Below are positions 15,201-38,192 of a stretch of DNA of 51,878 nt, piece by piece. The DNA is taken from NCBI GenBank assembly GCA_030695565.1, contig JAUYRZ010000001.1, positions 1 to 51,878 of the forward strand, read 5' to 3'. The stretch is from Archangium sp. Its GTDB lineage: Bacteria > Myxococcota > Myxococcia > Myxococcales > Myxococcaceae. How positions within the stretch are numbered: the first letter of the stretch is position 1; every line of letters begins with the position of its first letter. The notes under the pieces were generated by a model. That model searched no databases and was not told the DNA's origin. It saw nothing but the letters and a program-made list of their open reading frames with translations. The position numbers were made by a program, and so were the translations under genes.

Positions 15201-18859
<3,659 letters not shown>

Positions 18860-19799: not shown

Positions 19800-19876
19800 C
19801 GCCGCTCCTTTCCACTTTTGGGAAGCCACACCGGACCACTGGCCGACGCGCCATGTCCGAGAGAAAGAAGCATCAC

Positions 19877-20554
19877 ATGAAGGGTCTCATCGGCAAGAAG
19901 GCCGGAATGACGCAGATCTTCAACGCAGACGGCAACGCCGTTCCCGTGACCGTGGTCGACGTCACGTCCGTTGAAGTGGTCGGCAAGCGCACCATGGAGA
20001 AGGACCAGTACACCGCCGTCGTCCTCGGGATGACGGACGCCAAGGAGAAGCACCTCACCAAGGCGCAGGTCGGTTCCTTCAAGAAGGCCGGCGCGAACCT
20101 CAAGCGCATCGTGCGCGAGTTCCGCGTCGACGCGTCCGAGTTGGACGGCTTCAAGATCGGCGAGCAGGTCAAGGTCGACGCCTTCTTCAAGATGGGCGAG
20201 CTGGTCGACGCGACCGGCATCACCAAGGGCCGTGGCTTCCAGGGCGTCATGAAGCGCTGGGACTTCCGCGGCTTCGGTCAGACCCACGGTACCCACGAAT
20301 ACCGCCGCCACCCCGGCGCGATCGGTCAGCGCAAGACGCCGGGCCGCGTGTACCCGAACAAGAAGCTCCCGGGTCACTACGGCGTGGAGCAGGTCACCAC
20401 CCAGAACCTCGAAGTGGTCGGTCTGCACCCTGAGAAGAACCTCATCCTGATCAAGGGTGGCATCGCCGGCTCGAACGACGGGCTCGTCGTGATCAAGCCC
20501 TCCGTGAAGACCGCCCTGCGCGCGGCGCACAAGGCGCAGAACACCCGGAAGTAA
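19877..20554 (+). CDS. rplC: Ribosomal protein L3, outside the S10 operon
   Basis: 225 residues starting MKGLIGKKAGMTQIFNADGN, the standard L3 opening; an in-frame ATG at 19853 is less likely. Core signatures are present: ITKGRGFQGVMKRWDFRGFG, THGTHEYRRHPGAIGQRKTP and VTTQNLEVV. The Gln in AIGQ corresponds to the residue methylated by PrmB in E. coli. L3 binds 23S rRNA early in 50S assembly and reaches towards the peptidyl-transferase centre. Normally rplC sits in the S10 operon between rpsJ and rplD. Here it stands alone between a lipoprotein and a Cys-rich lipoprotein, so it is either a second copy or a relocated gene. Confidence 0.95.
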   Translation: MKGLIGKKAGMTQIFNADGNAVPVTVVDVTSVEVVGKRTMEKDQYTAVVLGMTDAKEKHLTKAQVGSFKKAGANLKRIVREFRVDASELDGFKIGEQVKVDAFFKMGELVDATGITKGRGFQGVMKRWDFRGFGQTHGTHEYRRHPGAIGQRKTPGRVYPNKKLPGHYGVEQVTTQNLEVVGLHPEKNLILIKGGIAGSNDGLVVIKPSVKTALRAAHKAQNTRK

Positions 20555-20597: not shown

Positions 20598-22403
20598 ATG
20601 TGGAGTGTGCGCTCGGTATGGCCGGTGGGGTTGCTGTCGGCAGCGTTGGCGCTGTCGGCCTGCGGCCCTTCCGGACCCAGGCCCATTCAACTGGGGCTTC
20701 CCTGCATTCCGGGCGATTCGGGCTCGGTCTGCGCATCGGGCCTGTGTCTGGCGCTCGATAACCAGTCGGGCTTCTGCACCGACGCCTGCACGGCCGATGA
20801 TCAATGCCCGGCAGAGTTCCTCTGCCAGGCCGCGGGCCGCTACGGCCGCATCTGCCGCCCGCTCTCGGGCTGCAAGACCGAAGTCGACTGCCCCTCAGGT
20901 CACGTCTGCAATGCAGACACGGGCAACTGCTACATCGCCGTGAGCCGTTCGCTCTGCGGCCCCTGCCAGGACGGCAACCAGTGCCCCGCGGGGGGCGCGT
21001 GTTTCTCGGCCATCGGCTCGGGCGAGCAGTTCTGCACCACGGCCTGCGGCGCCGGCGACAGCTGCCCCACGGGGTACAGCTGCCGCGAGCTGCCCGTCGG
21101 TGTCGAAGGGGCGCTGCTCAAGCAGTGCGCGCCCGACACTGAATCCTGCAACAACGGCCGGAGCATCTGCTCCGCTTGCCAGGGCGACGACGAGTGCGGC
21201 GGTCCCTTCGACCTGTGCGTGCGCAACGTGGTCTCCGGCGTCACGTTCTGTGGGCGCGACTGCAACCCCGCGAAGAACATCTGCCCGACCCTCGGCTGCG
21301 ATCCGGTGAAGCTCGGCTCTGCTGAGAACCCGGACTGCCCGGGCGGCTTCTCCTGCACCAACATCGGCCAGAGCGACGACCCGTCGGTGGTGGGCCCATT
21401 CCAGTGCGTGCCCAACAGCAACACCTGCGAGGGCTACTGCGACTCGACCGACACCATCGGTCAGTTGAGCCAGTGTGGCCTGGGAAAGGTCTGCTCGAAC
21501 AACGTGTGCACCGGCGCTGCCGACGGCCGCATGTGTTCGCCCTGCGCGGACAACGACGACTGCCGCCGCGGTGGGTTCTCGGAGAACCGCTGCATCGTGA
21601 ACAACTGCACCGACTGCCCCTTCGCGGGCGAGGCGTTCTGCTCCACCCCGTGCGCCGATGACGCGGCTTGCGTTCGCAGCTTCGGTGCGGGCTTCGTGTG
21701 CAAGCCGGTCGACGATCCCAGCTCGCCTCCGCGCTCCTATTGCATGCCGCAGCGCGGCTCGTGCAAGGGCGGCCTGGGCCGGCTCGGCGAGAACTGCTCG
21801 GTGGCCGGCCCGCAAGATTGCGTGACCGGCGTGTGCCTCGAGGCGGGCTTGAACGACTTCTGCTCCGGGCCGTGCACCACCGACGCGCAGTGCGGCGACA
21901 CGCGCTTCCGCTGCTGTGAGACCTCAGCGGCCACCGGCGGCTACGACTGCAGCGAGCCCCACCGCACCGCCACCGGCCCGTTGAGCGGTTCGGGCGTCTG
22001 CGCGCCCATTGGCGGCCTGTTCGGCGACGACTGCTCGCCCGGCCGCGCGCCGTGCCAGAGCGGCACTTGCCTCGACCTGGGCACCGCGCGCCTCTGTTCG
22101 GTCACCTGCGGCAGCGGCTCGTGCCCCGATGGGTTCGCTTGCCGCCAGGCCGTCGGCCCCGACGGCACCACGCAGGTCCCCGTGTGCTTCCCCAACGGCG
22201 GCGGCAAACCCGGCGCTGATTGCGGCTTCGGGCCCGCTGCCTGCGAGAGCGGCCTGTGCATTCGCAAAGACTCCGGCCCCGTCTGCACCATGGGCTGCGC
22301 CGCTGATGCCGATTGCCCCGACGACTGGATCTGCGACCTGCTGCGCACCGTCACAGATACTTCGGTGCAGGCCTGTCTGCCTCCGGCCCTTCAGGATGGG
22401 TGA
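20598..22403 (+). CDS. Cys-rich surface lipoprotein, candidate gliding-motility lipoprotein
   Basis: 601 residues, ATG at 20598 with GGGGAGG 7-8 bases upstream. MWSVRSVWPVGLLSAALALSAC gives lipobox L-S-A-C. The rest is dominated by dozens of cysteines in repeats of the type C-x(4-6)-C-x(3-5)-C, e.g. CTADDQCPAEFLCQ, CPAGGACFS and CATDADCPDD-like units, probably disulfide-bonded on the cell surface. I cannot name the fold with certainty. It lies 72 bases before the CglB-like gene. By position it could correspond to a Cgl lipoprotein such as CglC/GltK, which in M. xanthus precedes gltB-gltA-gltC. That is positional inference only, not recognised sequence. Confidence 0.75.
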   Translation: MWSVRSVWPVGLLSAALALSACGPSGPRPIQLGLPCIPGDSGSVCASGLCLALDNQSGFCTDACTADDQCPAEFLCQAAGRYGRICRPLSGCKTEVDCPSGHVCNADTGNCYIAVSRSLCGPCQDGNQCPAGGACFSAIGSGEQFCTTACGAGDSCPTGYSCRELPVGVEGALLKQCAPDTESCNNGRSICSACQGDDECGGPFDLCVRNVVSGVTFCGRDCNPAKNICPTLGCDPVKLGSAENPDCPGGFSCTNIGQSDDPSVVGPFQCVPNSNTCEGYCDSTDTIGQLSQCGLGKVCSNNVCTGAADGRMCSPCADNDDCRRGGFSENRCIVNNCTDCPFAGEAFCSTPCADDAACVRSFGAGFVCKPVDDPSSPPRSYCMPQRGSCKGGLGRLGENCSVAGPQDCVTGVCLEAGLNDFCSGPCTTDAQCGDTRFRCCETSAATGGYDCSEPHRTATGPLSGSGVCAPIGGLFGDDCSPGRAPCQSGTCLDLGTARLCSVTCGSGSCPDGFACRQAVGPDGTTQVPVCFPNGGGKPGADCGFGPAACESGLCIRKDSGPVCTMGCAADADCPDDWICDLLRTVTDTSVQACLPPALQDG

Positions 22404-22475: not shown

Positions 22476-23921
22476 ATGCTCGTTCTCCGTGTGCTCATTC
22501 TGGTGTCGCTCGCACTGGCTGCCGCCGGCTGTGATGATCGCACGCGCACGAGGAAGATCGTCGAGCCGTTCGCGGTGGTTCCCGGCACGCCCACTGTCGA
22601 CGACGCGACGCCCGCGGTGAAGGTCGATCCCACGATGGCCACCGACGCGTTCGGGGTCAACGTGCCCAAACAGTGCGACGCGTACACGCAGTTGCCGGTG
22701 CGCAAGGTCGACATCCTCTGGGTGGTCGACTCGTCGGGCTCGATGGCCCCCAAGCAGGCGCGTCTCGCGTCGAACTTCCAGGGCTTCATCAACCAGCTCG
22801 TCACCGCCAACCCGCCCATCGACTTCCACATCGCCGTCACCAGCACCGACACCGACGACGCGGCCGCCCGCGGCAAGCTGCGCCCCTGGACGTTGGGCGC
22901 CACCAGCGAGAACTACATCAGCTGCACGCCGATGATGGGCGGCGGGGTGACCTGCAACACCGGCCCGAACCTCACCACCGCGGTGCAGGCCTTCGGTCAG
23001 ATGTCGGCCGTGGGCATCAACGGCAGCGCGGCCGAGCGCGGGCTCTACGCGGCGTACCTCGCGCTCACCGAGCCCACCAACATCACCACGCCCGTCTTCG
23101 ATCGCTTCATTCGTCAAGACGCGGCGCTGTACGTGGTGGTGGTGTCAGACGAAGACGACGCGTCGTGCACGCCGATGACCCGCCAGACCACCTGCACCGC
23201 CGACCCCGGCTGCCGCTGCGCGCCCGATAACTCGCTCGCGGGCGCGGGCACCTGGGGGAGCACCGCGTACTTCACGCGCTTCCTCGAGACCTACAAGGGC
23301 TACGGCAACGCCGAGTCGGTGGCGCTCGCGGCGATCGTCTCCACGGCCGCCGACGAACAGGCCGTGCCTTCGCAGTTCGGTGACCCCACGCCGCACGTCG
23401 GTTGCTGCCGGGCCCTGGGCGCCGGCGCGTGCCCCGATGGCGGCGTCAACGACGGCGGCTTCGAAATCGCGTACACCGGCAGCCGCTACGAGAAGGTCGC
23501 GACCGAGACGGGTGGGGTGACGGTGTCGATTTGCCAACAAGACTTCTCGGGCGCGCTCTCCTCGCTGGGCTACGCCGCGTCTGGTCTGCGCCGTGACTTC
23601 CGCCTCAGCCGGGGGCCCGACCTGCGCCCCGATGGCGGCGTGGCGACCGGCTTGACCTCGTACGTGAGCCCCGCCTCCGCGGCCAACTGCATGGTCGATG
23701 GCAACTGCCCGGTGACGACGCCGGCCTGCCGCAACGGGCGCTGCGCGCGGCGCGTCGACGTCTCCACGGCGATGGTGAGCAACGGCGCTTCGTACCTGAA
23801 GTGCGAAGGCGCGGGGCTTCGCAACATCGTTCGTTTCGAGGGCACCTCGGTGCCCGAGCCGCTCAGCACCGTCGAGGTTTGCTACGACGTGCTGCCCACG
23901 TTCCAGAACAGCTGTCCGTAG
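22476..23921 (+). CDS. cglB: von Willebrand A-domain lipoprotein, CglB-like gliding adhesin
   Basis: 481 residues. Lipoprotein signal MLVLRVLILVSLALAAAGC (Cys19). A vWA domain follows from about residue 76: KVDILWVVDSSGSM contains the metal-ion MIDAS motif DxSxS (D85, S87, S89), and VVVVSDEDDASC supplies a later acidic position. Many cysteines suggest disulfides. In M. xanthus CglB is an outer-membrane vWA lipoprotein that acts as the adhesin of the Agl-Glt gliding focal adhesions. The call rests on domain, lipid anchor, Cys-richness and its place 9 bases before the gltB-like gene. Other vWA lipoproteins exist in myxobacteria, so the symbol is provisional. Confidence 0.6.
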   Translation: MLVLRVLILVSLALAAAGCDDRTRTRKIVEPFAVVPGTPTVDDATPAVKVDPTMATDAFGVNVPKQCDAYTQLPVRKVDILWVVDSSGSMAPKQARLASNFQGFINQLVTANPPIDFHIAVTSTDTDDAAARGKLRPWTLGATSENYISCTPMMGGGVTCNTGPNLTTAVQAFGQMSAVGINGSAAERGLYAAYLALTEPTNITTPVFDRFIRQDAALYVVVVSDEDDASCTPMTRQTTCTADPGCRCAPDNSLAGAGTWGSTAYFTRFLETYKGYGNAESVALAAIVSTAADEQAVPSQFGDPTPHVGCCRALGAGACPDGGVNDGGFEIAYTGSRYEKVATETGGVTVSICQQDFSGALSSLGYAASGLRRDFRLSRGPDLRPDGGVATGLTSYVSPASAANCMVDGNCPVTTPACRNGRCARRVDVSTAMVSNGASYLKCEGAGLRNIVRFEGTSVPEPLSTVEVCYDVLPTFQNSCP

Positions 23922-23930
23922 ATGAGGTGA

Positions 23931-24701
23931 ATGAGCTCCATGACTCGTACGACACTCAACCTGATGAGCTGCCTGGTGCTGATGACGGCCCAAGCGGCGT
24001 TCGCCGAAGATGAAACCGAAGAGCTCGTGGAGAAGGTCGCGGTGCGGAACCGCCTCTTCTCGGTCGAGGGACGTTGGGAGCTCGGCGGCAACGTCGGCTT
24101 CTCGCTCCTGAGCCGGCTCACCGACCACTACAACTTCAACGTCTCGGTCGCCTTCAACCCGAAGGACTGGCTGGGGCTCGAGCTGCGCGGCGGGTACGCG
24201 CTGTCGCGCCACACGTCGCTGGCCGATCAGATCCAGACCGACTTCTTCGCCAACAACACCATCAGCCGCGCCAATGACGCGGCCGATCTGTGGGAGCTCA
24301 CCGCCCACGGTGTGTTCGGCATCCGGTTCCAGCCCATCTACGGGAAGATCAACCTGATGTCGGAGCTGCCGATTCACTTCCAGTTCTACGTCTGGGCCGG
24401 TGGTGGCGTGGGCGCGCTCAAGCGCGAGTCGATGGTGCTCTGCGCCGAACGGGTCAGCGCGCGTGAGTGCGGCCAGTTCCTCACCGAGAACAAGGTCAGC
24501 CCGCTCGTCTCGGTCGCCCTGGGTTTCCGCTTCTTCATCATGCAGCAGCACTCCGTGAAGATCGAAGTGCGTGACTGGAGCTACCTCGACTCGTTCCAGA
24601 TCAACGTCGACCGGGCCACGGGCACGGGCGGCATGGATAGCCCCAACGCGGGCATCACCAACCTCGTCCAGTTCGACCTGGGCTACGCGTTCATCTTCTA
24701 A
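23931..24701 (+). CDS. gltB: Outer-membrane beta-barrel protein, GltB-like
   Basis: 256 residues, ATG at 23931 with GAGG upstream. A signal peptide ends near AQAAFAED. The remainder alternates hydrophobic and polar residues, with amphipathic strands such as RWELGGNVGFSLLSRL, NFNVSVAFNPKDWLGLELR and FYVWAGGGVGALKRES. It ends LVQFDLGYAFIF, a typical C-terminal aromatic beta-signal. Myxobacterial gliding needs two such barrels, GltA and GltB, which dock the trans-envelope complex in the outer membrane. The symbol follows the gene order gltB-gltA-gltC recalled from M. xanthus; gltA and gltB could be exchanged. Confidence 0.65.
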   Translation: MSSMTRTTLNLMSCLVLMTAQAAFAEDETEELVEKVAVRNRLFSVEGRWELGGNVGFSLLSRLTDHYNFNVSVAFNPKDWLGLELRGGYALSRHTSLADQIQTDFFANNTISRANDAADLWELTAHGVFGIRFQPIYGKINLMSELPIHFQFYVWAGGGVGALKRESMVLCAERVSARECGQFLTENKVSPLVSVALGFRFFIMQQHSVKIEVRDWSYLDSFQINVDRATGTGGMDSPNAGITNLVQFDLGYAFIF

Positions 24702-24714
24702 GGGACGATCTTCG

Positions 24715-25806
24715 ATGACCTCCTTCCGTCATGTTCTGTTGTTCGCAGCCTTCGTCACGGCGTTCGCCGTGCAGGCGGCTGCTCCCATCGATGCCCCGTT
24801 GATCGTCGTCGCCCAGGCCACGCCTGATGATGACGAGGATGATCCGGCTCCGGCCGCGACGCCGGCGCCCACCACCACGCCGAAGAGTGACACGCCCACC
24901 GCGCCGCCGCCCCCCGGTACGCCCGCGCCGGCGCCCGCTGCTGCTGTCGCGGCAGACCCCGAGGCGCAGCGCCTGGTGTCGGGCGCGCCGCTCTACAACC
25001 CCAACGTCGCCGTGCACATCGTCGAGCAGAAGGCGTACTCCGACTCGAAGAAGAGCGAGATCGTGCTCTACCCGGTGGCGATGCAGGTGAACGGCAAGTT
25101 CACCCAGCACTTCGGCACGATGGGCTCGTTCGTGTACCACCTGCAGGAGAACTTCGGCCTCCAGATCTCCGGCGGCTACAACTGGTACAACGTCGAGTCG
25201 GCGTTCAACGGTGAGCTGGTCGAGAAGTTCCGCGTCGAGGCCCAGGCCGCGACCTCGCTCTTGTGGACGTGGGGCGTGATGGGCGGCGTTGAAGTCAGCC
25301 CGCTCTACGGCAAGTTCACCTTGTTCGAAGGCACCCTGGCGCACTTCAGCTTCGTGCTGAACGGCGGCGTGGGCGCCGGTGGCACGCGCCACCAGCTCAA
25401 GCCCGAGACGGTGAAGACCGACGGCACCATCAGCCAGGCCACCTACGGCGACACGGGGGCCCGGTTCATGGGTTCGCTGGGCGCCGGCTTCCGCCTGCAG
25501 CTGGGTGAACGGTTCGCGATGCGCCTCGAAGTGCGCGACGTCGTCTACACGGCGCGCATGGAGCGGGTGAACGGCTGCAACGTCGACGACCTCCGCGCCC
25601 TCGACGGCAAGATTCGCATGGGCCAGGACCCCGGTACCGCCGTGGTGGGCGCCAGCTGTGACGTCGACACGTTCACCGGCACCATCGAAGGCACCGACAT
25701 CAAGCGCAGCAACGACGTCCCGCTCGCGCTGAACCTCGTTCGCATCCCCAGCTCCGACGTGCTCAACAACATCGGGCTGTATCTCGGGATCTCGTTCCTC
25801 TTCTAA
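24715..25806 (+). CDS. gltA: Outer-membrane beta-barrel protein, GltA-like
   Basis: 363 residues. Signal peptide (about 1-22), then an Asp/Pro/Ala/Thr-rich disordered linker (about 38-85), then a beta-barrel region of about 270 residues similar in style to the preceding protein: QISGGYNWYNVESAFNGELV, GVEVSPLYGKFTLFE, GAGFRLQLGERFAMRLEVRD. It ends NIGLYLGISFLF. The shared motif (xPLYGKF/PIYGKI, FxxRLEVRDxxY) suggests that the two barrels are paralogues. It lies 13 bases after the first barrel gene and 9 before gltC, so it is part of the same operon. The symbol is by order and provisional. Confidence 0.65.
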   Translation: MTSFRHVLLFAAFVTAFAVQAAAPIDAPLIVVAQATPDDDEDDPAPAATPAPTTTPKSDTPTAPPPPGTPAPAPAAAVAADPEAQRLVSGAPLYNPNVAVHIVEQKAYSDSKKSEIVLYPVAMQVNGKFTQHFGTMGSFVYHLQENFGLQISGGYNWYNVESAFNGELVEKFRVEAQAATSLLWTWGVMGGVEVSPLYGKFTLFEGTLAHFSFVLNGGVGAGGTRHQLKPETVKTDGTISQATYGDTGARFMGSLGAGFRLQLGERFAMRLEVRDVVYTARMERVNGCNVDDLRALDGKIRMGQDPGTAVVGASCDVDTFTGTIEGTDIKRSNDVPLALNLVRIPSSDVLNNIGLYLGISFLF

Positions 25807-25815
25807 GGGCACACC

Positions 25816-27351
25816 ATGAAGCGCACGCTCTTTATTGCCATCACGCTCGCCGCCGGTCTGGCCTCGGCGCAGGATCTCGCCGTCTACAACAAGGCGCTGT
25901 CGGCCTATAACGGCAACCAGTTCGAAGACTCGGCCCGGCTGTTCTTCGAAGTGACGAACAGCACCACCGACAACGATCTGCGGCTCAAGGCGGAGTACTA
26001 CCTCGCCTCGAGCTTCCAGCGTTCGAACCTGCCGTTCACCGCGTTCATCTACTTCACGCCCATCGTGAAGGCGGGGCCGCAGCACCCGTACCACCTGAAG
26101 TCGGTCGAGGCGCTCATCTCGCTGCAGGAGGTCTTGAACGACGACTTCCTCATCCCCTCGATCATGAACAACCTCTACGACCGCTACGCCGATGCCTGGG
26201 CGACGCTGCCGCTCGAGGTGCTCGCGCGCATCAACTACCAGATCGGCCGCATCGCGCACCGCCGCGGCAAGCTCGACGAGGCCAAGCAGTTCCTCGAGGC
26301 CGTGCCGGACACCAGCCAGGTCTACGCCAAGGCCCAGTACCTGATGGGCATCACGCTTGCCGACCCGCGCTACCCGGCCGCCGACGAGGCGACCCGCAGC
26401 AAGAACCTCGAGGCCGCCATCTCGACCTTCGAGGCGGTGCTCAAGGTGCGCACCCGTCAGCTCGACTTCGAAGAGACCAAGCAGCTCTCGTATCTGGCGC
26501 TGGGCCGCACGCTGTACAACCAGGGCCAGTACCAGAAGTCGACCGAGTGGTACGAGCGGGTGCCGCGGTTCTCGAAGTACTGGGATCAGTCGTTGTTCGA
26601 GAACGGCTTCGCCCGGTTCCAGAACGATGACTTCGGCGGGGCGCTCGGCTCACTGCAGGGCCTGTACGCGCCGCAGTTCGCTGGCGCCTTCCAGCCCGAG
26701 TCGTGGATCCTCACCTCGACGACCTATTATTTCTCGTGCCTGTACGACGAGTCGAAGTCGTCGTTGGTCGAGTACGAGCGCATCTACCTGCCGATGTCGG
26801 AGAAGCTCAAGCCGCTGGTCGACTCGGCCGAGCCGCGGGAGCTGTCGGCGTACTTCAAGATGGTCAACGTGACCGAGAACCCTGAGCTGCCCCGCGCGGT
26901 GCTCAACTGGGTGCGCACCAACGAGCGCATGCTGGGCCTCTTCGGCATGCTCAAGGCGATCGAGACCGAGCGTACGGCCATCGAAGGCAACCAGGCCTGG
27001 CGCGCTGCCAAGATGAGCGCCGAGCTCGTCACGTACCTCGACCAGAACAAGGACACCCTCGAGAAGACGGCCGGGCAGATCGCCAAGGCGCGCCTCACCG
27101 AGGCGTACCGCACCATCAAGGGCTTCGGCGATCAGGCCGAGATCATTCGGTTCGAGATCGCGAAGGCCGAGAAGGAGTTCGCCGAGACCGGCGCAGACGG
27201 GCAGGCCCTCCTTGGCAAGCAGACCCTGTATCGGCCCAAGATGCCGGCTGAGAACTGGAACTACTGGAAGTTCGAGGGCGAGTTCTGGCGCGACGAGATC
27301 GGGTACTACCAGTACACGCTCAAGCGCGGCTGTCCGGCACCGACGAACTGA
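25816..27351 (+). CDS. gltC: Periplasmic TPR protein, GltC-like
   Basis: 511 residues. Signal peptide MKRTLFIAITLAAGLASA. The body is helical with TPR-like repeats, e.g. AVYNKALSAYNGNQFEDSAR, GRIAHRRGKLDEAKQFLEAV, ALGRTLYNQGQYQKSTEWYE and FENGFARFQNDDFGGALGSL. It ends in a Trp/Tyr-rich segment (NWNYWKFEGEFWRDEIGYYQ). In M. xanthus GltC is a soluble periplasmic TPR protein encoded with the GltA/B barrels and needed for their stability. Position and architecture agree. An intrinsic terminator 34 bases downstream ends this unit. Confidence 0.75.
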   Translation: MKRTLFIAITLAAGLASAQDLAVYNKALSAYNGNQFEDSARLFFEVTNSTTDNDLRLKAEYYLASSFQRSNLPFTAFIYFTPIVKAGPQHPYHLKSVEALISLQEVLNDDFLIPSIMNNLYDRYADAWATLPLEVLARINYQIGRIAHRRGKLDEAKQFLEAVPDTSQVYAKAQYLMGITLADPRYPAADEATRSKNLEAAISTFEAVLKVRTRQLDFEETKQLSYLALGRTLYNQGQYQKSTEWYERVPRFSKYWDQSLFENGFARFQNDDFGGALGSLQGLYAPQFAGAFQPESWILTSTTYYFSCLYDESKSSLVEYERIYLPMSEKLKPLVDSAEPRELSAYFKMVNVTENPELPRAVLNWVRTNERMLGLFGMLKAIETERTAIEGNQAWRAAKMSAELVTYLDQNKDTLEKTAGQIAKARLTEAYRTIKGFGDQAEIIRFEIAKAEKEFAETGADGQALLGKQTLYRPKMPAENWNYWKFEGEFWRDEIGYYQYTLKRGCPAPTN

Positions 27352-27384
27352 CGCTGGATCGCGGTCACATTCTCAGGAGTTGAG

Positions 27385-27417
27385 AGGGCACCCACCGTTT
27401 TTGGGGTGCCCTTTTCT
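27385..27417 (+). terminator. Intrinsic terminator after gltC
   Basis: Stem GGGCACCC (27386-27393) with GGGTGCCC (27404-27411), followed by TTTTCTT. It separates the barrel/gltC unit from gltD. A TAGGTT at 27436-27441 directly downstream is a possible -10 for gltD. Confidence 0.85.
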
Positions 27418-27471
27418 TCGGTCGGAGCCTTGTTGTAGGTTCCGCGCGTTTTTCGCCCCACAGGAGCACAG

Positions 27472-30400
27472 ATGAAGCTCGCAGTTCGCCTCGTGACGAT
27501 CCTCGCTGTTGCTGCCGGCCTCAGCGCCAGCACCGCAGCCGCTCAAGCCAAGAAGAAGGCAGATCCGAAGGCGGCGCCTGCGAAGGCCGACCCGAAGGCG
27601 AAGGCCGGTACGCCCGCTGCGACGGCCGCCAAGAAGCCTGAAGAGCGCAAGGGCCCCGCGAAGCTCGACGCCCGCGACGCCAAGATCGAAGACGTGGTGA
27701 AGGAAGCCACGGCCGACAAGAAGCGCGACGAGCAGATCGAAGCGGCGAAGAAGATCATCCCCAAGATCGAAGACGGGAACCCGCAGAAGGCCGACCTGCT
27801 CTACCAGTTGAGCGAGCTCTACTGGGAGAAGTCGAACTACCTGTACCGCAAGGAGATGCTCGGCTTCTTCAACTCTCAGAAGGAAGCCGACGAGAAGAAG
27901 AACCGCGGCGAGAAGGTGGCGGAGCCCAAGGAAGATCACCGCGAGTCCGAGCTGTACCGCTCGGAGACGATGCGCCTCTACGAGACCATCCTCCGCGAGT
28001 ACCCGACCTACGAGCGCAAAGACGAGGTGCTCTACAGCCTCGCGTACAACCAGTACGAGATCGGCAAGCGCGACCTCGCGGTCAAGCGCTACGAGGAGCT
28101 CCTCAAGAGCTACCCCGGCTCGAAGTTCGTCTCCGACACCTACGTGCAGCTCGGTAACCACTACTTCGAAGTGGCCAACATCCTCGAGAAGGCGAAGACC
28201 TACTACGAGAAGGCGTTCGCTTCGCAGAACCTCAAGATCAAGTCGTACGCGCTCTACAAGCTGGCCTGGGTCGACTTCAACGAGGGCAACCACGAGAAGG
28301 CGCTCAAGAAGCTGCAAGACGTGGTCGAGTTGGCCGAGAAGCAGAACAAGGAGAAGTCGTTCACGGATCTGAAGAACGAAGCGCTCCAGGACTCGATTCG
28401 CATGTTCGTGCAGTTGAACCGCGCCGACGACGCGATGGCGTACTTCAAGGCGCACGCGGGCAAGAAGAAGCAGCTCTCGCTCACCCAGAAGCTCGCGTAC
28501 GCGCTGCAGGAGGCCGGTCACCACGAGAACGCGATCAAGTCGTTCCGCTACCTGCTCAACGACAGCGCGGTCTCCGAGGCGGCGCCTGACTGGCAGCAGT
28601 CGATCATCAAGTCGTACGAAGGCCTGCGCCAGCGCGACAACGTGAAGGTGGAAGTGAAGAAGCTGGCCGAGCTCTATCGCCCGGGCAGCGTCTGGTGGAA
28701 GGCCAACGAGTCGAAGAAGGAAGTGCTCCGCAACGGCTTCAACGTCGCCGAAGAGGCGATGCGCCAGGCCGTCACCGAGTACCACCAGGAGGCGCAGAAG
28801 ACGAAGGAAGTGAAGACCTACCGGCTCGCGCGCGACATCTACAAGGAGTACGTCGAGGCGTTCGCCTCGGCCGAAGACGAGAACTTCGTCGCCGACCAGG
28901 CCTTCAACCTGAAGTTCTACTACGCCGAGATCCTCTGGGCGCTCGAGGAGTGGGAGCCCGCGGCCAAGCAGTACGTCGGCGTGATGGCCTTCAAGGTGCC
29001 CAACCGCGCCGAGGCGAAAGAAGCGTCGAACGAGAAGTACCGCCAGCAGTCGGTGTTCAACTCGATCCTCGCCTACGACAAGCTGGTGAAGATCGAGCGC
29101 GGCCAGCTCGGCAAGTCTGAGCTGGATGAGAACAAGAAGATCGAAGAGAACAAGAACGCCAAGAAGGGCACCGTCGAGAAGGCCGCCAAGCTCACCAAGC
29201 GCGACCCCAAGGAGATGGAAGAGAAGCCCATCACCGCCTTCGAGAACCAGCTCGTCGCCGCGTGTGACGCGTACAACAAGCTCTTCCCGAAGAACCCCGA
29301 CGAGGTCGACATCTCGTACCAGGCCGCGATGGTCTTCTACGACAAGAACCACTACGTCGAGGCCGGCCGCCGCTTCGGTGACGTGATCAACCGGTACCCC
29401 GAGCACCCGAACTCCGAGAAGGCCGCCGACCTCACCATGGCGGTGCTCAACGATCGCGAAGAGTGGCTCGAGCTCAACAAGCTCTCGCGCCTCTTCAAGT
29501 CGAACAGCAAGCTCAGCAAGCCGAACACCGAGTTCACCAAGCGGGTGGGCGCGCTCGTCGAAGGCTCGCAGTACAAGTACATCGACGAGGTCGTGTACAA
29601 GAAGGAGAAGGACGCCGCGAAGGCCTCCGAGCTCTTCGTCGACTTCGTCAAGGAGTTCCCCAAGTCGGAGAACGCCGACCGCGCGTTGACCTACTCGATG
29701 ATCATCGCCCGCGAGGCGAACCAGCTCGACAAGGCCATCGCCATCGGCGAGCGCGTGCTCAAGGAGTACCCGAACACCGTGTTCGACCTGAAGGTGAAGG
29801 TCGCGCTCGCCTACTTCTACGAGAAGATGGCGAACTTCCACAAGTCGGCTGAGACCTACGAGAACTTCGTGGCCAGCTACGACCTGGCGGCGGGTGACAA
29901 GGCGATCGGCTACTCGGAGATCAAGGACCTCCTCAAGAAGGAGAAGGAAGCCCGCGAGAAGGAGCTCAAGGCGAACAAGGGCAAGCCTGCGCCGGGTGCT
30001 GCTGCTCCGGTCGTCACCTTCGATCTGAAGCTGGTGCCGAAGGACGCGCAGGAGGCCAAGAAGAAGGAGCGTGAGGCGCTGGTGAAGGAGGCCGAAGGCA
30101 TGGTCGCCGACGCGCAGTACAACGCCGGCTTCTGGTACGAGGGCGTCGGTCAGTTCGACAAGGCGATCGCCGCGTACGGCCGCTACATCGTGCGCTTCAA
30201 GGACAAGAAGGACGTTCCTGAGCTCGCGTACAACATCGGCCTGGTGCTGGAGAAGCAGACCAAGACCGCCGAAGCGCTCACCCAGTTCAGCTCGTTCCTC
30301 ACCACCTACCCGAAGGACACGCGCGTCACCGACGCCCGCCGCCTCGAGGTGAAGTACCGCCAGTACCTCCTGAACGGGAAGCTGAAGAACACCCCTGAGC

Positions 30401-31080
30401 AGGAGCGCCTGGCGAAGGAGATCATCGCCGCGTACCCGAAGCTCAAAGACGAGGACAAGCGCAACGACCGCGCGATGCTCGCCTTCGCTCACACCCGCTT
30501 CGTCGCGCTCGAGCCCCTGTGGACCACGTACACGGGCCTCAAGTTCAAGAAGATCGCCGCGTTCAAGGTCGAGCTGCCCATCAAGCAGAAGAAGCTGACC
30601 GAGCTCGAGAACGCGTACATCGAAGTCTTGAAGGTCGGTAACCCCGAGTACGGCATCGCGGCGCTGACCCGCGTCGGCCTGCTGTACCAGGACATGGCCG
30701 CCAACATCACCGACATCCCCGATCCGCCGGGGCTCGATGAAGACCAGCTCTCGATCTTCCGTGGCGAGCTCGAGAACCGCTACATCTTCCCGCTCGAAGA
30801 GAAGTGCGTCGAGGCGCTCGAGAAGGCGCTGGCGAAGTCGTACGAGCTGGCGATGTACAGCGAGTGGACGCTGCTGGCGCAGGACAAGCTCAACAAGTTC
30901 AAGCCTGGCTTCTACGCGAAGCCGCGTGAGGTCGGTTACCGGGGCAGCGAGTTCTTCGCGACCTCGGGCTTCGAGAAGAAGGCCGACCTGCCCGCGGAGC
31001 CCGTCGTCGAGACGCCTCCTCCTGCGACCACGCCCCCCAACAGCGCCGCCGCTCCTACGCCGGGCGCAGGTGTCCGATGA
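27472..31080 (+). CDS. gltD: Large TPR protein, GltD/AgmU-like
   Basis: 1202 residues, ATG at 27472 with AGGAG 7 bases upstream. Signal peptide MKLAVRLVTILAVAAGLSA, a Lys/Ala/Pro-rich spacer (about 27-60), then many TPR-type helix pairs over most of the length, e.g. ADLLYQLSELYWEKSNYLYR, VLYSLAYNQYEIGKRDLAVK and AYNIGLVLEKQTKTAEALTQ. The C-terminal tail is Pro/Ala/Thr-rich. M. xanthus GltD (AgmU) is a multi-TPR gliding protein of about this length, spanning the periplasm. The stop overlaps the gltE start (ATGA). It is very rich in AAG/GAG/GAC codons, which explains the 1039-residue stop-free antisense frame. Confidence 0.8.
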   Translation: MKLAVRLVTILAVAAGLSASTAAAQAKKKADPKAAPAKADPKAKAGTPAATAAKKPEERKGPAKLDARDAKIEDVVKEATADKKRDEQIEAAKKIIPKIEDGNPQKADLLYQLSELYWEKSNYLYRKEMLGFFNSQKEADEKKNRGEKVAEPKEDHRESELYRSETMRLYETILREYPTYERKDEVLYSLAYNQYEIGKRDLAVKRYEELLKSYPGSKFVSDTYVQLGNHYFEVANILEKAKTYYEKAFASQNLKIKSYALYKLAWVDFNEGNHEKALKKLQDVVELAEKQNKEKSFTDLKNEALQDSIRMFVQLNRADDAMAYFKAHAGKKKQLSLTQKLAYALQEAGHHENAIKSFRYLLNDSAVSEAAPDWQQSIIKSYEGLRQRDNVKVEVKKLAELYRPGSVWWKANESKKEVLRNGFNVAEEAMRQAVTEYHQEAQKTKEVKTYRLARDIYKEYVEAFASAEDENFVADQAFNLKFYYAEILWALEEWEPAAKQYVGVMAFKVPNRAEAKEASNEKYRQQSVFNSILAYDKLVKIERGQLGKSELDENKKIEENKNAKKGTVEKAAKLTKRDPKEMEEKPITAFENQLVAACDAYNKLFPKNPDEVDISYQAAMVFYDKNHYVEAGRRFGDVINRYPEHPNSEKAADLTMAVLNDREEWLELNKLSRLFKSNSKLSKPNTEFTKRVGALVEGSQYKYIDEVVYKKEKDAAKASELFVDFVKEFPKSENADRALTYSMIIAREANQLDKAIAIGERVLKEYPNTVFDLKVKVALAYFYEKMANFHKSAETYENFVASYDLAAGDKAIGYSEIKDLLKKEKEAREKELKANKGKPAPGAAAPVVTFDLKLVPKDAQEAKKKEREALVKEAEGMVADAQYNAGFWYEGVGQFDKAIAAYGRYIVRFKDKKDVPELAYNIGLVLEKQTKTAEALTQFSSFLTTYPKDTRVTDARRLEVKYRQYLLNGKLKNTPEQERLAKEIIAAYPKLKDEDKRNDRAMLAFAHTRFVALEPLWTTYTGLKFKKIAAFKVELPIKQKKLTELENAYIEVLKVGNPEYGIAALTRVGLLYQDMAANITDIPDPPGLDEDQLSIFRGELENRYIFPLEEKCVEALEKALAKSYELAMYSEWTLLAQDKLNKFKPGFYAKPREVGYRGSEFFATSGFEKKADLPAEPVVETPPPATTPPNSAAAPTPGAGVR

Positions 31081-32417
31081 GCTCCCTGAACATGAAGTCG
31101 ATTCGAATTGCAGCGTTGGTGTCGGTCTCGTCGCTCGGCCTGATGGGTTGCCCTCCGGCCGCGGTCGAGGTGAAGAAAGACGTCGTCGTCACCGAGGCTC
31201 CGAAGCCGAAGGAGAAGTCGGTGAAGGAGATCTTCACCGACGCGGTCGCCGCCTTCGACGCGGGCAAGCTCGACGAAGCGCAGGCCGGCTTCGCCAAGGT
31301 CGCCGCGAAGGTGCCGAGCAACGTGGTGGTGCAGTTCAACTCGGGCGTGATCGCCGAGCGCCAGGGCAAGCTCACGGAGGCGGCCGGGTTCTACGAGGCC
31401 GCCAACAAGCTCGACCCCAAGCACAAGCCGACGCTGCTCAACCTCGGCCGGGTGTACCGCCAGCAGGACAAGTTCGACAACGCCATCTCGCTCTACGAGA
31501 CGGCGCTCAAGGACCCCGCCAACGAGTACGACATCGAGCTGAACAACAACCTCACCGTCGCCTACCGCCTCGCGAAGAAGTACGCGCAGGCTGAAGCGAC
31601 GGCGCGGAAGGTGCTCGCGCGCACGAAGGACAACCCCGACGCGTACAAGAACCTGGCGCTCATCTACTTCGACCAGGGCAACTTCCGCCTGGCGGAGTTC
31701 ATCTCGGCCAACGCGCGCAAGCTCGATGACAAGGATCCGGGCGTCTACAACAACCTCGGCCTCATCTACCTGAAGCTCGACGATCGCCGCCTGGCGCTCG
31801 GCCAGTTTCAGAAGGCCGTCTCGCTCAACAAGGACTTCACGCCCAGCCTCTTCAACATCGGCGCGATGGCCCTGACGTACCGCGACTACGACGGCGCCGA
31901 GAAGGTGCTCTCGCGCGCGACCGAGCTCGACCAGAACTCGTACGAAGGCTTCCTCGCGTACGCGTTTGCGCTCGACGGGCAGAAGGGCCGCGACGCCAAG
32001 AAGGGCCTCAAGGCAGGCGAGCTGTTCGAGCGCGTGCTGGCGATCAAGGCCGACCAGAACGACGCCATCTGCGGCGCGGCCTGGGCCTACGCCGCCGACA
32101 AGGCCGGCTGGGACAAGGCGCTGGGCTTCCTCGATCGCTGCAAGGCGCTGCCGACCACCACGCCGGTCGACGTGCAGCTCATCGACAGCAAGATGAAGGG
32201 CATCGTGGCGATGCAGAAGGCGGGCGCTGCCGCGGCCCAGCCCAAGCCGGAAGAGAAGGAGAAGCCCAAGGCGACTCCGACCGGCCCTTCGTTGCTCGAC
32301 AAGGTCTCCGATGACGCCGCCAAGCAGGATCCCGGCGCGACCTCTGAGACCCCGGCCGCGGCTCCGGGTGTGGCGCCTGCCACCGATGCCCCGGCGCCGG
32401 CTCCCGCGCCGAAGTGA
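31077..32417 (+). CDS. gltE: TPR lipoprotein, GltE/AglT-like
   Basis: 446 residues from the ATGA overlap at 31077 (an internal ATG at 31092 is possible). Lipoprotein signal ending in LMGC (Cys25), with PPAA after the Cys. TPR repeats cover about 50-330: GVIAERQGKLTEAAGFYEAA, LNLGRVYRQQDKFDNAISLY, YNNLGLIYLKLDDRRLALGQ. An Ala/Pro/Lys tail ends the protein. AglT/GltE is a TPR outer-membrane lipoprotein required for assembly of the gliding complex in M. xanthus. Gene order after gltD matches. A hairpin and a promoter-like pair follow the stop. Confidence 0.82.
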   Translation: MSSLNMKSIRIAALVSVSSLGLMGCPPAAVEVKKDVVVTEAPKPKEKSVKEIFTDAVAAFDAGKLDEAQAGFAKVAAKVPSNVVVQFNSGVIAERQGKLTEAAGFYEAANKLDPKHKPTLLNLGRVYRQQDKFDNAISLYETALKDPANEYDIELNNNLTVAYRLAKKYAQAEATARKVLARTKDNPDAYKNLALIYFDQGNFRLAEFISANARKLDDKDPGVYNNLGLIYLKLDDRRLALGQFQKAVSLNKDFTPSLFNIGAMALTYRDYDGAEKVLSRATELDQNSYEGFLAYAFALDGQKGRDAKKGLKAGELFERVLAIKADQNDAICGAAWAYAADKAGWDKALGFLDRCKALPTTTPVDVQLIDSKMKGIVAMQKAGAAAAQPKPEEKEKPKATPTGPSLLDKVSDDAAKQDPGATSETPAAAPGVAPATDAPAPAPAPK

Positions 32418-32430
32418 AGCAGGGGTGGGG

Positions 32431-32459
32431 GTGACAACCACCCCCGAGATCCCTACTAT
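32431..32459 (+). promoter_or_regulatory. Candidate promoter of gltF-gltG
   Basis: GTGACA (32431-32436), an exact 17-base spacer and TACTAT (32454-32459), followed by the GC-rich CCGCCCG. The -35 overlaps a perfect 7-base stem (GGGGGTG/CACCCCC, loop ACAAC). The spacing to the gltF start leaves a leader of nearly 90 bases. Confidence 0.5.
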
Positions 32460-32553
32460 CCGCCCGAGTTTTCTTGACGCCGGCGTTCAGGCGTCTCCTT
32501 TTCAGGAACCCGCCCCTTCAATGTGGTGTCACAGGGGTGTACGGAGGCAGCAA

Positions 32554-32817
32554 ATGAACCGTGTTTTCGCAGGTCTCGCCGTTTTCGCTCTGATGTCCAC
32601 TGCGGCTGTCGCGCAGGACAAGGTCACCCGCGAGGCTGACAAGACGGTCTTCCGCAAGAAGACCACCATCGACTTCACCGACGTCGCCATCGATGGCGAG
32701 CTCACCAAGCCTGAGGGCAGCTACTCAGTGTCGAAGAAGAAGACGACCTTCAAGACCCTGATCAAGGTTCGCGACAACTTCAACCCCGAGCTCCAGAAGT
32801 CCGTCGAGAACCTCTGA
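32554..32817 (+). CDS. gltF: Small exported gliding protein, GltF/CglF-like
   Basis: 87 residues, ATG at 32554 with GGAGG 6 bases upstream. Signal peptide MNRVFAGLAVFALMSTAAVA, then a short basic/acidic domain with KKTTIDFTDVAIDGELTKPE and KTLIKVRDNFNPELQKS. In M. xanthus a small exported protein, CglF (GltF), is encoded between gltE and gltG and links outer- and inner-membrane parts of the gliding complex. The size, signal peptide, position and the DFTDVAIDGELTKPEGSY block fit. It has its own candidate promoter and precedes gltG by 38 bases. Confidence 0.75.
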   Translation: MNRVFAGLAVFALMSTAAVAQDKVTREADKTVFRKKTTIDFTDVAIDGELTKPEGSYSVSKKKTTFKTLIKVRDNFNPELQKSVENL

Positions 32818-32855
32818 ACACTCGCAGTCCCGCCTCACTTTTGAAGGACCTCACC

Positions 32856-34661
32856 ATGGCCAAGAAGACCTCGATCACCCTGCAGATCACCAACCCCGAC
32901 GGCTCGGTCACCGAGTCGACCAGCGAGCTCGAGAGCATCATCGTCGGCTCGGGTTCCGGCGCGTCGGTGAAGCTGACCGATCCGAAGGTGTCGAACCTTC
33001 ACTGCATGTTCAAGGTGGAGAAGGACGGCGCGGTCACGGTGATCGATCTCGGCTCCGAGAGCGGCACCAGGTTCAAGGAACAGCCGGTCAAGGAGCCCGC
33101 GCTCGTCGCGTCGGGCGAGACCGTGATGATCGGCGAGTCGAAGGTGAAGATCGTCTACGGCGAAGAGAAGGCCGTGCAGGCGAAGTCGGAGGAGAAGAAG
33201 TCCGACGAGAAGAAGGAGAAGGGCCACAAGAAGGACAAGAAGGAGAAGATGGTTCCTTCGACCAAGGGTCTTGCCGGCACCGGGAAGAACGCCGCCGCCC
33301 TGTTCAGCGAGCCGTTGCCCGCCGAGGCCGTGCCCACCGAGAGCGAGAAGGTGCTCCAGGTCGCGCTGCTCTGGGGCGACACCCTGATCAACGTGCAGCA
33401 CTTCGGTGAAGGCGTGCCGGTCACCATCGGTGATGGCGAAGGCAACCGCTTCACGGTGTTCAACGCCGGCGCGAACTTCTCGCTCGCCCAGTCGCGCGGC
33501 GCGGTCGCGATCGTCAACGTGCCCTCTGAAGCGGGGCTCATCGTCACCACCAAGAGCGACTCGCACAAGAGCAAGGAGCAGCTCAAGACCGAGGGCAAGC
33601 TCAAGGCGGCCGACGGCGGCGTGCGTGCCGACGCGGTCGAGTTGGCGCTGCACGATCGCGCTCAGGTTTCGTTCAACGACGTCGCGTTCATCATCCGTTT
33701 CGTGCGCCCCAGCACGCACGTGACGCTGAACACGTTCGAAGAGCACGACTTCACCTTCTTCAAGATCGTCTCGATCTGCCTGATGGCGTTCTTCGCTCTC
33801 GTGGCCGCGATGGTGCTCACGCCCCTCGGCTTCGGCGGTGATGGCGACGACATCTTCGGCAACCCGTCGAAGTACGTGAAGCTGATGATCAAGCCGGAGA
33901 AGAAGGTCGAGATCAAAAAGTTCAAGGATCTCTCCGGCATCAAGGAAGGCGAGAAGCCCAAGGAGAAGGAAGGCAAGTTCGGCAAGCAGGACGCCAAGAA
34001 GGACCAGGCCGACCCCTCCAAGAAGCGCATGGACGACCAGAAGAAGGTCTCCAGCCTGATGGCCTCGATGTTCGGTGGCAGCTCCAAGAGCCTGTTCGAA
34101 GCGGGCCTCGGCACCGGCGTCAACGCGGCGCTCGGCGGTCTGACCGGCGGCGCGGGCGTGGGTGATGCGCAGGGTGTCGGTGGTCTCGGCTCGCGCGGCA
34201 GTGGCGCCGGCGGTGGCGGCAACGGCCTGGGTCTGGGCGGTCTCGGCACCAAGGGCGGCGGTCGTGGCCGCGGTGGTTACGGCTCGATCGACCTCGGCGG
34301 TAAGGGCAAAGACTCGACCCGCGTGATCCCCGGCAAGACCACGGTCGTCGGCGGTCTCGACAAAGACGTGATCATGAAGGTGATCAAGCGTCACCAGAAC
34401 GAGATCAAGTTTTGCTACGAGCAGGAGCTCCAGAAGAACCCGGCGCTCGGTGGCAAGGTCGCGGTCGCGTGGACCATCGACCCCGCGGGCGGCGTCTCTG
34501 AAGCCAACGTGAGCGAGTCTTCGATCGGCAACGCGAACGTCGAGTCGTGCATCGTGCAGCGCATTCGCCGCTGGAAGTTCCCCGAGCCCGCGGGCGGCGG
34601 CGTCGTGAACGTCACCTTCCCCTGGATCTTCAAGGCGGCCGGCGACGAAGGCGAAGAGTAA
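32856..34661 (+). CDS. gltG: FHA-TM-TonB_C gliding protein, GltG-like
   Basis: 601 residues; ATG at 32856 with GAAGGA about 8 bases upstream (a TTG at 32841 is less likely). Residues about 8-100 form an FHA-type domain (SIIVGSGSGASVKLTDPKVS, DLGSESGTRF). A Lys/Glu-rich linker (106-135), a second beta domain (165-285) and one membrane segment (301-323) follow. Then come a charged region, a Gly-rich stretch (415-485) and a C-terminal AgmX/PglI-type TonB domain (505-593: KRHQNEIKFCYEQELQKNP). This is the GltG layout: cytoplasmic FHA, inner-membrane helix, periplasmic TonB-like end coupling the motor to outer-membrane parts. The FHA lacks the usual Gly-Arg. Confidence 0.85.
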   Translation: MAKKTSITLQITNPDGSVTESTSELESIIVGSGSGASVKLTDPKVSNLHCMFKVEKDGAVTVIDLGSESGTRFKEQPVKEPALVASGETVMIGESKVKIVYGEEKAVQAKSEEKKSDEKKEKGHKKDKKEKMVPSTKGLAGTGKNAAALFSEPLPAEAVPTESEKVLQVALLWGDTLINVQHFGEGVPVTIGDGEGNRFTVFNAGANFSLAQSRGAVAIVNVPSEAGLIVTTKSDSHKSKEQLKTEGKLKAADGGVRADAVELALHDRAQVSFNDVAFIIRFVRPSTHVTLNTFEEHDFTFFKIVSICLMAFFALVAAMVLTPLGFGGDGDDIFGNPSKYVKLMIKPEKKVEIKKFKDLSGIKEGEKPKEKEGKFGKQDAKKDQADPSKKRMDDQKKVSSLMASMFGGSSKSLFEAGLGTGVNAALGGLTGGAGVGDAQGVGGLGSRGSGAGGGGNGLGLGGLGTKGGGRGRGGYGSIDLGGKGKDSTRVIPGKTTVVGGLDKDVIMKVIKRHQNEIKFCYEQELQKNPALGGKVAVAWTIDPAGGVSEANVSESSIGNANVESCIVQRIRRWKFPEPAGGGVVNVTFPWIFKAAGDEGEE

Positions 34662-34689
34662 GCCCCTTCGGCTGAGCTTCGTTGTACAG

Positions 34690-34732
34690 CGCGGCGCGGA
34701 TCTCTTCGGAGTTCCGCGCCGTTTTGCGTTTT
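34690..34732 (+). terminator. Intrinsic terminator after gltG
   Basis: Perfect 9-base stem CGGCGCGGA (34692-34700) and TCCGCGCCG (34713-34721), then TTTTGCGTTTT. The T-rich run merges into the gltH promoter. Confidence 0.88.
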
Positions 34733-34737
34733 CACGA

Positions 34738-34765
34738 TTGCGTTTGGGCTGCCCGAAGGTATGGT
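34738..34765 (+). promoter_or_regulatory. Candidate promoter of gltH
   Basis: TTGCGT (34738-34743), 16-base spacer, TATGGT (34760-34765), then GCCGCGCCC. It lies directly after the gltG terminator and about 26 bases before the gltH GTG. Confidence 0.45.
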
Positions 34766-34791
34766 GCCGCGCCCTTTGGTCTGGAGGATTC

Positions 34792-35388
34792 GTGCGGAAG
34801 CTCGCCACGTTGGTCGCTGCGCTCCTTGTTTCTTCGTCCGCTTTTGCTGCCACGCCTCCTGAGGGCGTGCCCCTGCAGGTGCGCCGTGGCTTCTTCACCG
34901 AGACTGACGTCGGTGGGATCTTCACTGTGGGAGGCGACAACGGGTATTCGAACCTGCAGACGTACCTGCAGCTCGGTCTGGGCTACCAGCTCACGTTGAA
35001 CGAGGGGAAAGGCATCATTCCCATCGGCCTCCACGTCGGCATCGGCGCCAACGCGCAGAACTGCTGGGCGGGGCTCAACAACACGGGCGCCTGCGTGCAG
35101 TCCGACAACTTCACCATGACGTTCTTGAACCTCTCGGTGGGGTACCTCCACCAGATCGTCGAGCGCTTCTACGTGGGCGGCAAGCTGCTCGGCGGCGTGA
35201 CGTTGCTCGACCCGGATCCCATCGGTGACGGTGGCCTGGTGCGCGGCAACTTCGGCGTCGCGCTCAGCCTCGAGTACGCGACCAACATGGATCACTTCTC
35301 GGTCGGCATCGACGTGTCGTACCGCCTGGTCATCGGGCCGAACATCAACGCGCTCATGTTCTACCCGCGCGTTCAGTACACCTTCTGA
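34792..35388 (+). CDS. gltH: Small outer-membrane barrel, GltH/CglE-like
   Basis: 198 residues from a GTG at 34792 with GGAGG four bases upstream. Signal peptide MRKLATLVAALLVSSSAFAA. Then an eight-strand-like beta-barrel pattern (GFFTETDVGGIFTVGGDNGY, YLQLGLGYQLTLN, VGYLHQIVERFYVGGKLLGG, GVALSLEYATNMDHFSVGID) ending FYPRVQYTF, an aromatic outer-membrane signal. In M. xanthus gltH (cglE) follows gltG and encodes an outer-membrane barrel of similar size. It is a single-gene unit flanked by terminators on both sides. Confidence 0.75.
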   Translation: MRKLATLVAALLVSSSAFAATPPEGVPLQVRRGFFTETDVGGIFTVGGDNGYSNLQTYLQLGLGYQLTLNEGKGIIPIGLHVGIGANAQNCWAGLNNTGACVQSDNFTMTFLNLSVGYLHQIVERFYVGGKLLGGVTLLDPDPIGDGGLVRGNFGVALSLEYATNMDHFSVGIDVSYRLVIGPNINALMFYPRVQYTF

Positions 35389-37113: not shown

Positions 37114-38175
37114 ATGCACGACGAGACCACAGCCCGGCGAAAAGATGCCCATCTCGATCTGTGCGCGACTGAAGAAGTGGCCCCGGTCGAGAACTCCACC
37201 CTGCTCGACAATGTGCGGCTCATTCACTGCGCGATGCCTGAGCTGGCGTTCGAGCAGGTCAGTCTCGGGGTGAACTGGTTCGGCAAGTCGCTCAAGGCCC
37301 CTCTCCTGATGACCGGGATGACTGGTGGCACGGAGCGGGCCGGGCAGGTGAACCGCGATCTCGCGCAGGTGGCTGAAGAGTTCGGCGTGGCCTTCGGCGT
37401 GGGCAGTCAGCGCGCGATGGCCGAGCGCCCTGAGTTGGCCTCGACCTTTTCGGTGCGCAACGTCGCGCCCAACACCGTGGTGATCGGGAACCTGGGCCTG
37501 GTGCAGGCGACCCGCATGACGGTCGATCAGATTCGCCGGTTGTCCGACGGCATCGGCGCCGACGCGCTGGCGATTCACCTGAACCCCGCGCAGGAACTGA
37601 ACCAGCCCGAAGGTGATCGCGACTTTCAGCTCGGCTACCTCACCATCACCGCGCTGGCGAAGGCCTACGGCGAGCGGCTGCTGGTGAAAGAGACCGGCTG
37701 CGGCGTCTCGCCTGAAGTGGCGCGGCGCCTGGTGGAGTGTGGGGTCTCCAGCATCGACGTATCGGGCCTCGGCGGCACCTCGTGGGTGCGCGTGGAGCAG
37801 CTGCGATCTTCCGGCGTCGCCCGCGAGGTCGGCGCGCAGTTCTCCACCTGGGGCATTCCCACGGCGGCCGCGGTGGCCTCGGTGCGCAAGGCGGTGGGCC
37901 CGGAGATCAAGCTGGTCGCCTCGGGCGGCATGCGCACCGGTCTCGAGATCGCCAAGGCGCTCGCGCTGGGCGCCGACATCGGCGGCATGGCGCTCCCGAT
38001 GTTCCGCGCGCAGCAGGTCGGCGGGGTGGCGGGCGTGCGCACGGCCCTGCAGACGGTGATCACCGCGCTCACGCAGGCGCTCGCGTTGACCGGAAGCCGC
38101 AACGTGACCGAGCTGCGCCGTCAGCCGCGCGTGGTGACGGGCGAACTCAAAGATTGGTTGCAGGCCCTGGGATGA
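37114..38175 (+). CDS. fni: Type 2 isopentenyl-diphosphate delta-isomerase
   Basis: 353 residues; AGGAG nine bases before the ATG. FMN- and NADPH-dependent IDI-2 signatures: RRKDAHLDL near the N-terminus, PLLMTGMTGGTERAG, HLNPAQELNQPEGDRDF, VKETGCGVSP, and the FMN phosphate loop LVASGGMRTGLEIAKALALG. It interconverts IPP and DMAPP at the end of the mevalonate route. First gene of an operon with mvaA, mvk and mvaD. A palindromic ACGTACGT at about 37042-37051 lies in the 126-base upstream region. Confidence 0.95.
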   Translation: MHDETTARRKDAHLDLCATEEVAPVENSTLLDNVRLIHCAMPELAFEQVSLGVNWFGKSLKAPLLMTGMTGGTERAGQVNRDLAQVAEEFGVAFGVGSQRAMAERPELASTFSVRNVAPNTVVIGNLGLVQATRMTVDQIRRLSDGIGADALAIHLNPAQELNQPEGDRDFQLGYLTITALAKAYGERLLVKETGCGVSPEVARRLVECGVSSIDVSGLGGTSWVRVEQLRSSGVAREVGAQFSTWGIPTAAAVASVRKAVGPEIKLVASGGMRTGLEIAKALALGADIGGMALPMFRAQQVGGVAGVRTALQTVITALTQALALTGSRNVTELRRQPRVVTGELKDWLQALG

Positions 38176-38192
38176 AGAATTCGGAGACACCG

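Follow-up and report, generated by a model that had tools for sequence, protein, structure and literature searches.

An nfs operon preceded by genes for a Cys-rich lipoprotein and a vWA/MIDAS lipoprotein in an Archangium genome, probably the ancestral form of the operon

The window, a 51,878-nucleotide stretch of an Archangium sp. genome (contig JAUYRZ010000001.1), carries an uninterrupted run of nine genes on the + strand, from 22476 to 35388 in our reading of its open reading frames. By Pfam and NCBIfam models, these encode, in order, a vWA lipoprotein, two OMP_myx_plus barrels, a GltC-like TPR protein, a large TPR protein, a TPR lipoprotein, a CglF/GltF-like protein, an FHA-TM-TonB_C/AgmX-tail protein, and a CglE/GltH-like barrel. 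The initial annotation had described a nine-gene run of gliding type in a single direction; gene calls bear out the run, and its domain and family assignments are right at the superfamily level. The conserved unit includes a tenth gene, here called Y, which encodes a 601-aa Cys-rich lipoprotein and ends 72 bp before the vWA gene. With corrected starts for B, F, G, and H (Table 1), the successive gaps from the vWA gene to H are 9, 10-13, 9, 120, -4, 136, 38, and about 130 bp, the first of these lying between the end of the vWA gene and the start of nfsA. No motor gene was found within the window. The rplC-like gene upstream stands alone before the operon here and in many relatives.

Table 1. 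Features of the Y-vWA-nfsA-H locus and its upstream flank
Feature	Coordinates	Strand	Basis and remarks
rplC-like (ribosomal protein L3)	19853..20554	+	Upstream flank, outside the machine; 63-92% orthologue directly before Y or nfsA in Myxococcaceae loci, 44-52% in four other families
Y, Cys-rich lipoprotein of 601 aa, with numerous short repeats of disulfide type	20598..22403	+	N-terminal signal and lipobox Cys; invariant cysteines along the length in 8 orthologues
vWA lipoprotein, MIDAS intact (D85-S-S-G-S89, D225), putative surface adhesin	22476..23921	+	Invariant lipobox C19, DSSGS, and SDEDD; MIDASAdhsBdello 58.5 bits
NfsA orthologue, outer-membrane beta-barrel	23931..24701	+	TIGR04565 132 bits; syntenic orthologues
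NfsB orthologue, outer-membrane beta-barrel	24715..25806	+	TIGR04565 72 bits; syntenic orthologues; corrected start
NfsC orthologue, exported TPR protein	25816..27351	+	gliding_GltC 222 bits (cut-off 450); 46-92% syntenic orthologues
NfsD orthologue, 1202-aa TPR protein	27472..31080	+	50-86% orthologue in most Myxococcaceae genomes; nfs clade in tree
NfsE orthologue, TPR lipoprotein	31077..32417	+	gliding_GltE 109 bits (cut-off 225); 4 bp overlap with nfsD
NfsF orthologue, small exported protein	32554..32817	+	gliding_CglF 66 bits (cut-off 90); corrected start (ATG)
NfsG orthologue, FHA-TM-TonB_C/AgmX-tail, predicted motor contact	32856..34661	+	FHA 3.5e-10; gliding_GltG 316 bits (cut-off 650); myxo_SS_tail 121 bits; corrected start
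NfsH orthologue, outer-membrane barrel	34792..35388	+	gliding_CglE 174 bits (cut-off 70); corrected start (GTG)

By sequence comparison and gene order, the A-H run (23931-35388) is the orthologue of nfsA-H, paralogous to glt, and not a glt locus. In M. xanthus, nfsA-H (MXAN_3371-3378, the spore-coat transport complex) comprises eight genes that are transcribed as a single unit and required for spores, with products NfsA to NfsH of 294, 442, 512, 1202, 499, 94, 682, and 200 aa (PMC2875238 and its Table 3), and it is a single cluster there, unlike the split glt genes (PMC3858216). The window has the same eight subunits in identical order and in one direction, with similar lengths. Among 39 family genomes searched with the window D protein, most have an orthologue at 50-86% identity, with a second group near 30%, and contiguous A-H clusters occur in nearly all family loci that could be read. 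Orthologous loci keep this gene order even where identity falls to about 35-45%, far beyond chance. In a tree of D proteins, the window sequence falls inside the nfs clade with the fruiting lineages, with 100% SH-aLRT support for the Myxococcaceae nfs clade and 99% for a wider clade that takes in other families; the gltD proteins of the window genome (contig C98), G023, and G038 form a separate glt clade (100%). The rplC-like flank is likewise common to the window and to Corallococcus/Stigmatella-like genomes. The window operon differs from that of M. xanthus in having Y and the vWA gene in front.

The initial annotation had filed the locus as glt, the organism's gliding locus with its CglB adhesin joined in one place, an explanation to which we now give almost no credence. 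In its favor, the families it named are all correct at the superfamily level, the two systems share a paralogous A-H set with the same FHA-TM-TonB_C, TPR, and barrel proteins, and the GltH-like protein passes the CglE cut-off. Against it, the window scores for GltC, GltE, GltG, and CglF all lie below the NCBIfam equivalog cut-offs (Table 1), genes for GltI, GltJ, and GltK are absent from the window locus, and a separate glt set, which was looked for elsewhere in the genome, was found in three pieces on other contigs with far higher family scores. Contig C119 carries gltB-A-C, with GltC (951 bits, cut-off 450) behind two barrels; C98 carries gltD-E, with GltE (597 bits, cut-off 225) after a GltD; and C121 carries gltF-G-H-I-J, with CglF at 122, GltG at 953 (cut-off 650), CglE at 155, and GltJ at 637 bits (cut-off 450), together with a very large, GltI-like TPR gene between H and J. 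gltK was not identified in the window genome. The assignment to glt was dropped on account of these separate copies and the placement of D in the tree. The comparison with M. xanthus that accompanied it, in which glt and cglB genes occupy separate loci, overlooked the contiguous nfsA-H operon of that species; its observation that adhesin-type lipoprotein genes are joined to the barrels stands.

Several other features of Glt-like genes were seen in passing. The gltD-E (C98, L015) and gltF-J (C121, L025, L026) pieces lie apart in the window genome, as they apparently do in G016 and G018; D-E-F-G are adjacent in G005, G019, and G023. On C121, gltG comes immediately after a gene for a 432-aa lipoprotein and a tandem pair of GltF-like genes (L025:3879-5869). 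The window genome has two further Glt-like clusters, C-D-E-F-G on C34 (L016) and F-G..C-D..E on C18 (L017); the C34 cluster has an orthologous counterpart in G023 (probably M. xanthus G4).

We propose that the vWA protein is a MIDAS/vWA adhesin-type lipoprotein, based on its lipobox and a DxSxS MIDAS in a vWA fold, with an adhesive role. The lipobox Cys, the DSSGS MIDAS, and SDEDD are invariant in all 11 orthologues compared. A structure model of low confidence (mean pLDDT 55) matches vWA domains best, among them those of integrin beta, TRAP, SpaC, and BatB; a sequence search for a solved structure gave no match. The protein resembles the NCBIfam models for the Bdellovibrio MIDAS adhesin and for CglD. 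Like the Bdellovibrio proteins (Bd0875 family, NF052240), it has a lipobox, a central vWA domain with a DxSxS MIDAS, and flanking beta-rich parts, but it scores far below the 700-bit cut-off of that family. The Bdellovibrio lipoproteins have been proposed to be catch-and-release adhesins, and the parts of that source on which we draw report no nfs context for Bd0875 (PMC11003981). A paralogue of the window protein, 31% identical over about 440 aa, is encoded on C30 (L160:6614-7738) and is of the kind closest to the Bdellovibrio MIDAS adhesins; such a paralogue also occurs in several relatives within this clade.

The vWA protein had also been called a CglB-like adhesin. CglB is likewise an outer-membrane-type lipoprotein with a vWA domain, but the likeness does not extend beyond the fold: BLASTP detects no similarity (E 2.8), and hhalign aligns only 32 columns. 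The window genome has, moreover, two tandem CglB homologues elsewhere (C90, L181:8720-11224; 37-40% identical by BLASTP), near genes for EF-Tu and a rimK-like protein, as in cultured relatives. These observations rule out identity with CglB. Most cultured relatives examined have one CglB at that locus, and G010, like the window genome, has two. In G023, a gene for a 404-aa vWA lipoprotein beside a lon-like gene was considered as a CglB candidate and dropped once the conserved cglB locus was found.

Loci were compared within the Myxococcaceae and across the order. The order rplC-Y-vWA-A..H is that of the window's clade (clade I, mostly MAGs), and rplC-A..H, without Y-vWA, is that of the cultured fruiting clade (clade II). 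Y is found with the vWA gene wherever both are readable. In an order-wide sample, which was drawn by a search with the vWA protein and is therefore blind to any nfs cluster of another family that lacks this protein, vWA orthologues occur in five other families (G039, G043, G040, G045, and G044), and all five precede A..H clusters. The vWA genes of G039 and G040 were recovered by translated search or alignment, the gene caller having missed them; G045 has no gene call for Y, A, or B, although its spacing fits; G044 has no call for F and no rplC immediately upstream of Y. The DxSxS motif is kept in four of these five copies, with Gln replacing the first MIDAS Asp in G039. Outgroup subunits are nearer to those of the window than to glt, at 33-46% against 27-30% for D.

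Since the order with Y-vWA recurs in the window lineage and in five other families, and nfsA-H follows rplC directly in the cultured fruiting lineages, Y-vWA-nfsA-H is probably the ancestral form of the nfs operon, with the pair lost at least twice. The presence and absence of Y-vWA require two changes on the tree. Given the outgroups, the simplest reading is that the pair disappeared once ahead of the fruiting clade and once in G013, a close relative in which rplC lies directly before nfsA and in which the pair is thus dispensable. Family genomes without the pair gave no unlinked vWA orthologue. An alternative entertained on an initial tree, that a single Myxococcaceae clade had acquired Y-vWA, was dropped because the five outgroup families carry the pair. 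The earlier suggestion of an ancestral undivided cluster was therefore right about an old order with the adhesin, but for nfs and not for glt, and the genetic tie that it saw between adhesin and barrels holds as a linkage of adhesin-type lipoprotein genes that is old across families. As far as could be found, the presence of Y and vWA lipoprotein genes before nfsA is new. The glt and nfs systems have been read as a recent duplication on a terminal deltaproteobacterial branch (PMC3858216, PMC3169522). The nfs-type clusters reported here span six families of the order and group in a clade separate from glt, such that the split looks older than that.

What might this operon do? FruA, ExoA-C, and CglB of G023 are presumed to be such from their position and sequence. 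Neither a FruA orthologue nor ExoB, the two markers sought, was found in the draft genomes of the window organism and of seven relatives with the operon. One outgroup carrier, G043, may be Vulgatibacter incomptus. V. incomptus reportedly forms neither spores nor fruiting bodies (PMC11821767). Contacts of AglR with both NfsG and GltG are known in M. xanthus (PMC3858216), and genes for ExbB-ExbD-ExbD of AglRQS type are present at C132 of the window genome; by analogy, an Agl-type motor would most likely drive the window Nfs complex. The missing markers, the possibly nonsporing carrier, and this analogy lead us to favor, with moderate confidence, a vegetative role: the nfs operon in its ancestral form most likely encodes an envelope-spanning transport machine with an adhesin on the vegetative cell surface, of which we infer the assembly, motor coupling, surface exposure, and adhesion. 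An AglRQS-type proton motor encoded elsewhere would pull on NfsG at the inner membrane, with the force passing through the periplasm via NfsD, -C, -E, and -F to the NfsA, -B, and -H barrels. The cargo of the outer-membrane module would be a catch-and-release adhesin, the vWA/MIDAS lipoprotein together with Y, in place of spore-coat polymer or in addition to it. In the fruiting Myxococcaceae, the adhesin pair would have been lost, and the machine would be the one known from wrapping spores in their Exo coat.

Other explanations were weighed against the same observations. That the operon builds a spore or cyst coat as in M. xanthus, with Y and the vWA protein as additional coat components, is supported by the direct orthology and by the synteny of the locus with nfsA-H, without which M. 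xanthus does not sporulate (PMC2875238); the basal Y-vWA genomes G010 and G024 also keep ExoB, G024 with an exoA-B-C locus. We nevertheless find this rather unlikely, given the lack of FruA and ExoB in the window genome and most operon-bearing relatives and the reported lack of spores in V. incomptus, if G043 is that species. Against the vegetative machine that we favor, G012 lacks Y-vWA and gave no ExoB match, so that the correspondence between adhesin loss and exo is imperfect. The operon could also encode a second gliding machine that works alongside Agl-Glt and uses the vWA lipoprotein as its counterpart of CglB, which would be a special case of the vegetative adhesive machine. In favor of this are the full A-H set parallel to GltA-H plus a MIDAS lipoprotein and the resemblance of that lipoprotein to the Bdellovibrio and CglD models. 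The locus lacks GltI/J/K-type genes, however, canonical glt and cglB are already present in the genome, and deletion of nfs in M. xanthus brings no A-motility defect (PMC2875238), making this narrower version improbable.

Y and the vWA gene might instead be mere neighbors, with an adhesion role unrelated to Nfs. Retention of nfs without the pair in clade II and G013 and the 72-bp gap between Y and the vWA gene speak for this. The nine-base gap between the vWA gene and nfsA, linkage conserved in six families, and the lack of an unlinked vWA orthologue in family genomes without the pair argue otherwise, and we consider simple adjacency improbable to a similar degree.

If the adhesive surface machine that we favor is extended back in time, Y-vWA-nfsA-H may have encoded, in the order's ancestor, a motor-driven machine for surface adhesion that was already distinct from glt before the families split. 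The spore-coat role would then have arisen by dropping the adhesin and taking a polysaccharide cargo, and present-day lineages that do not fruit would retain the adhesive version alongside canonical Agl-Glt. We put this forward tentatively, as a possibility that falls short of being probable. The distribution nonetheless suggests an adhesive surface machine as the forerunner of the spore machine, and an ancestral nfs operon with a MIDAS adhesin provides a concrete candidate for the cargo of this motor family before sporulation. Y and the vWA gene are the two genes to test. There is also a warning for annotation: before an uninterrupted A-H set from a metagenome is labeled as gliding genes, a second set should be looked for.

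Elsewhere in the window, an unusually long 914-aa protein with a haem-peroxidase (PF00141) domain is encoded at 15204-17945 on the - strand. Downstream of the operon, at 37737-40456, a gene for HMG-CoA reductase is followed by one for a GHMP kinase, which makes these neighbors a mevalonate-pathway gene pair.
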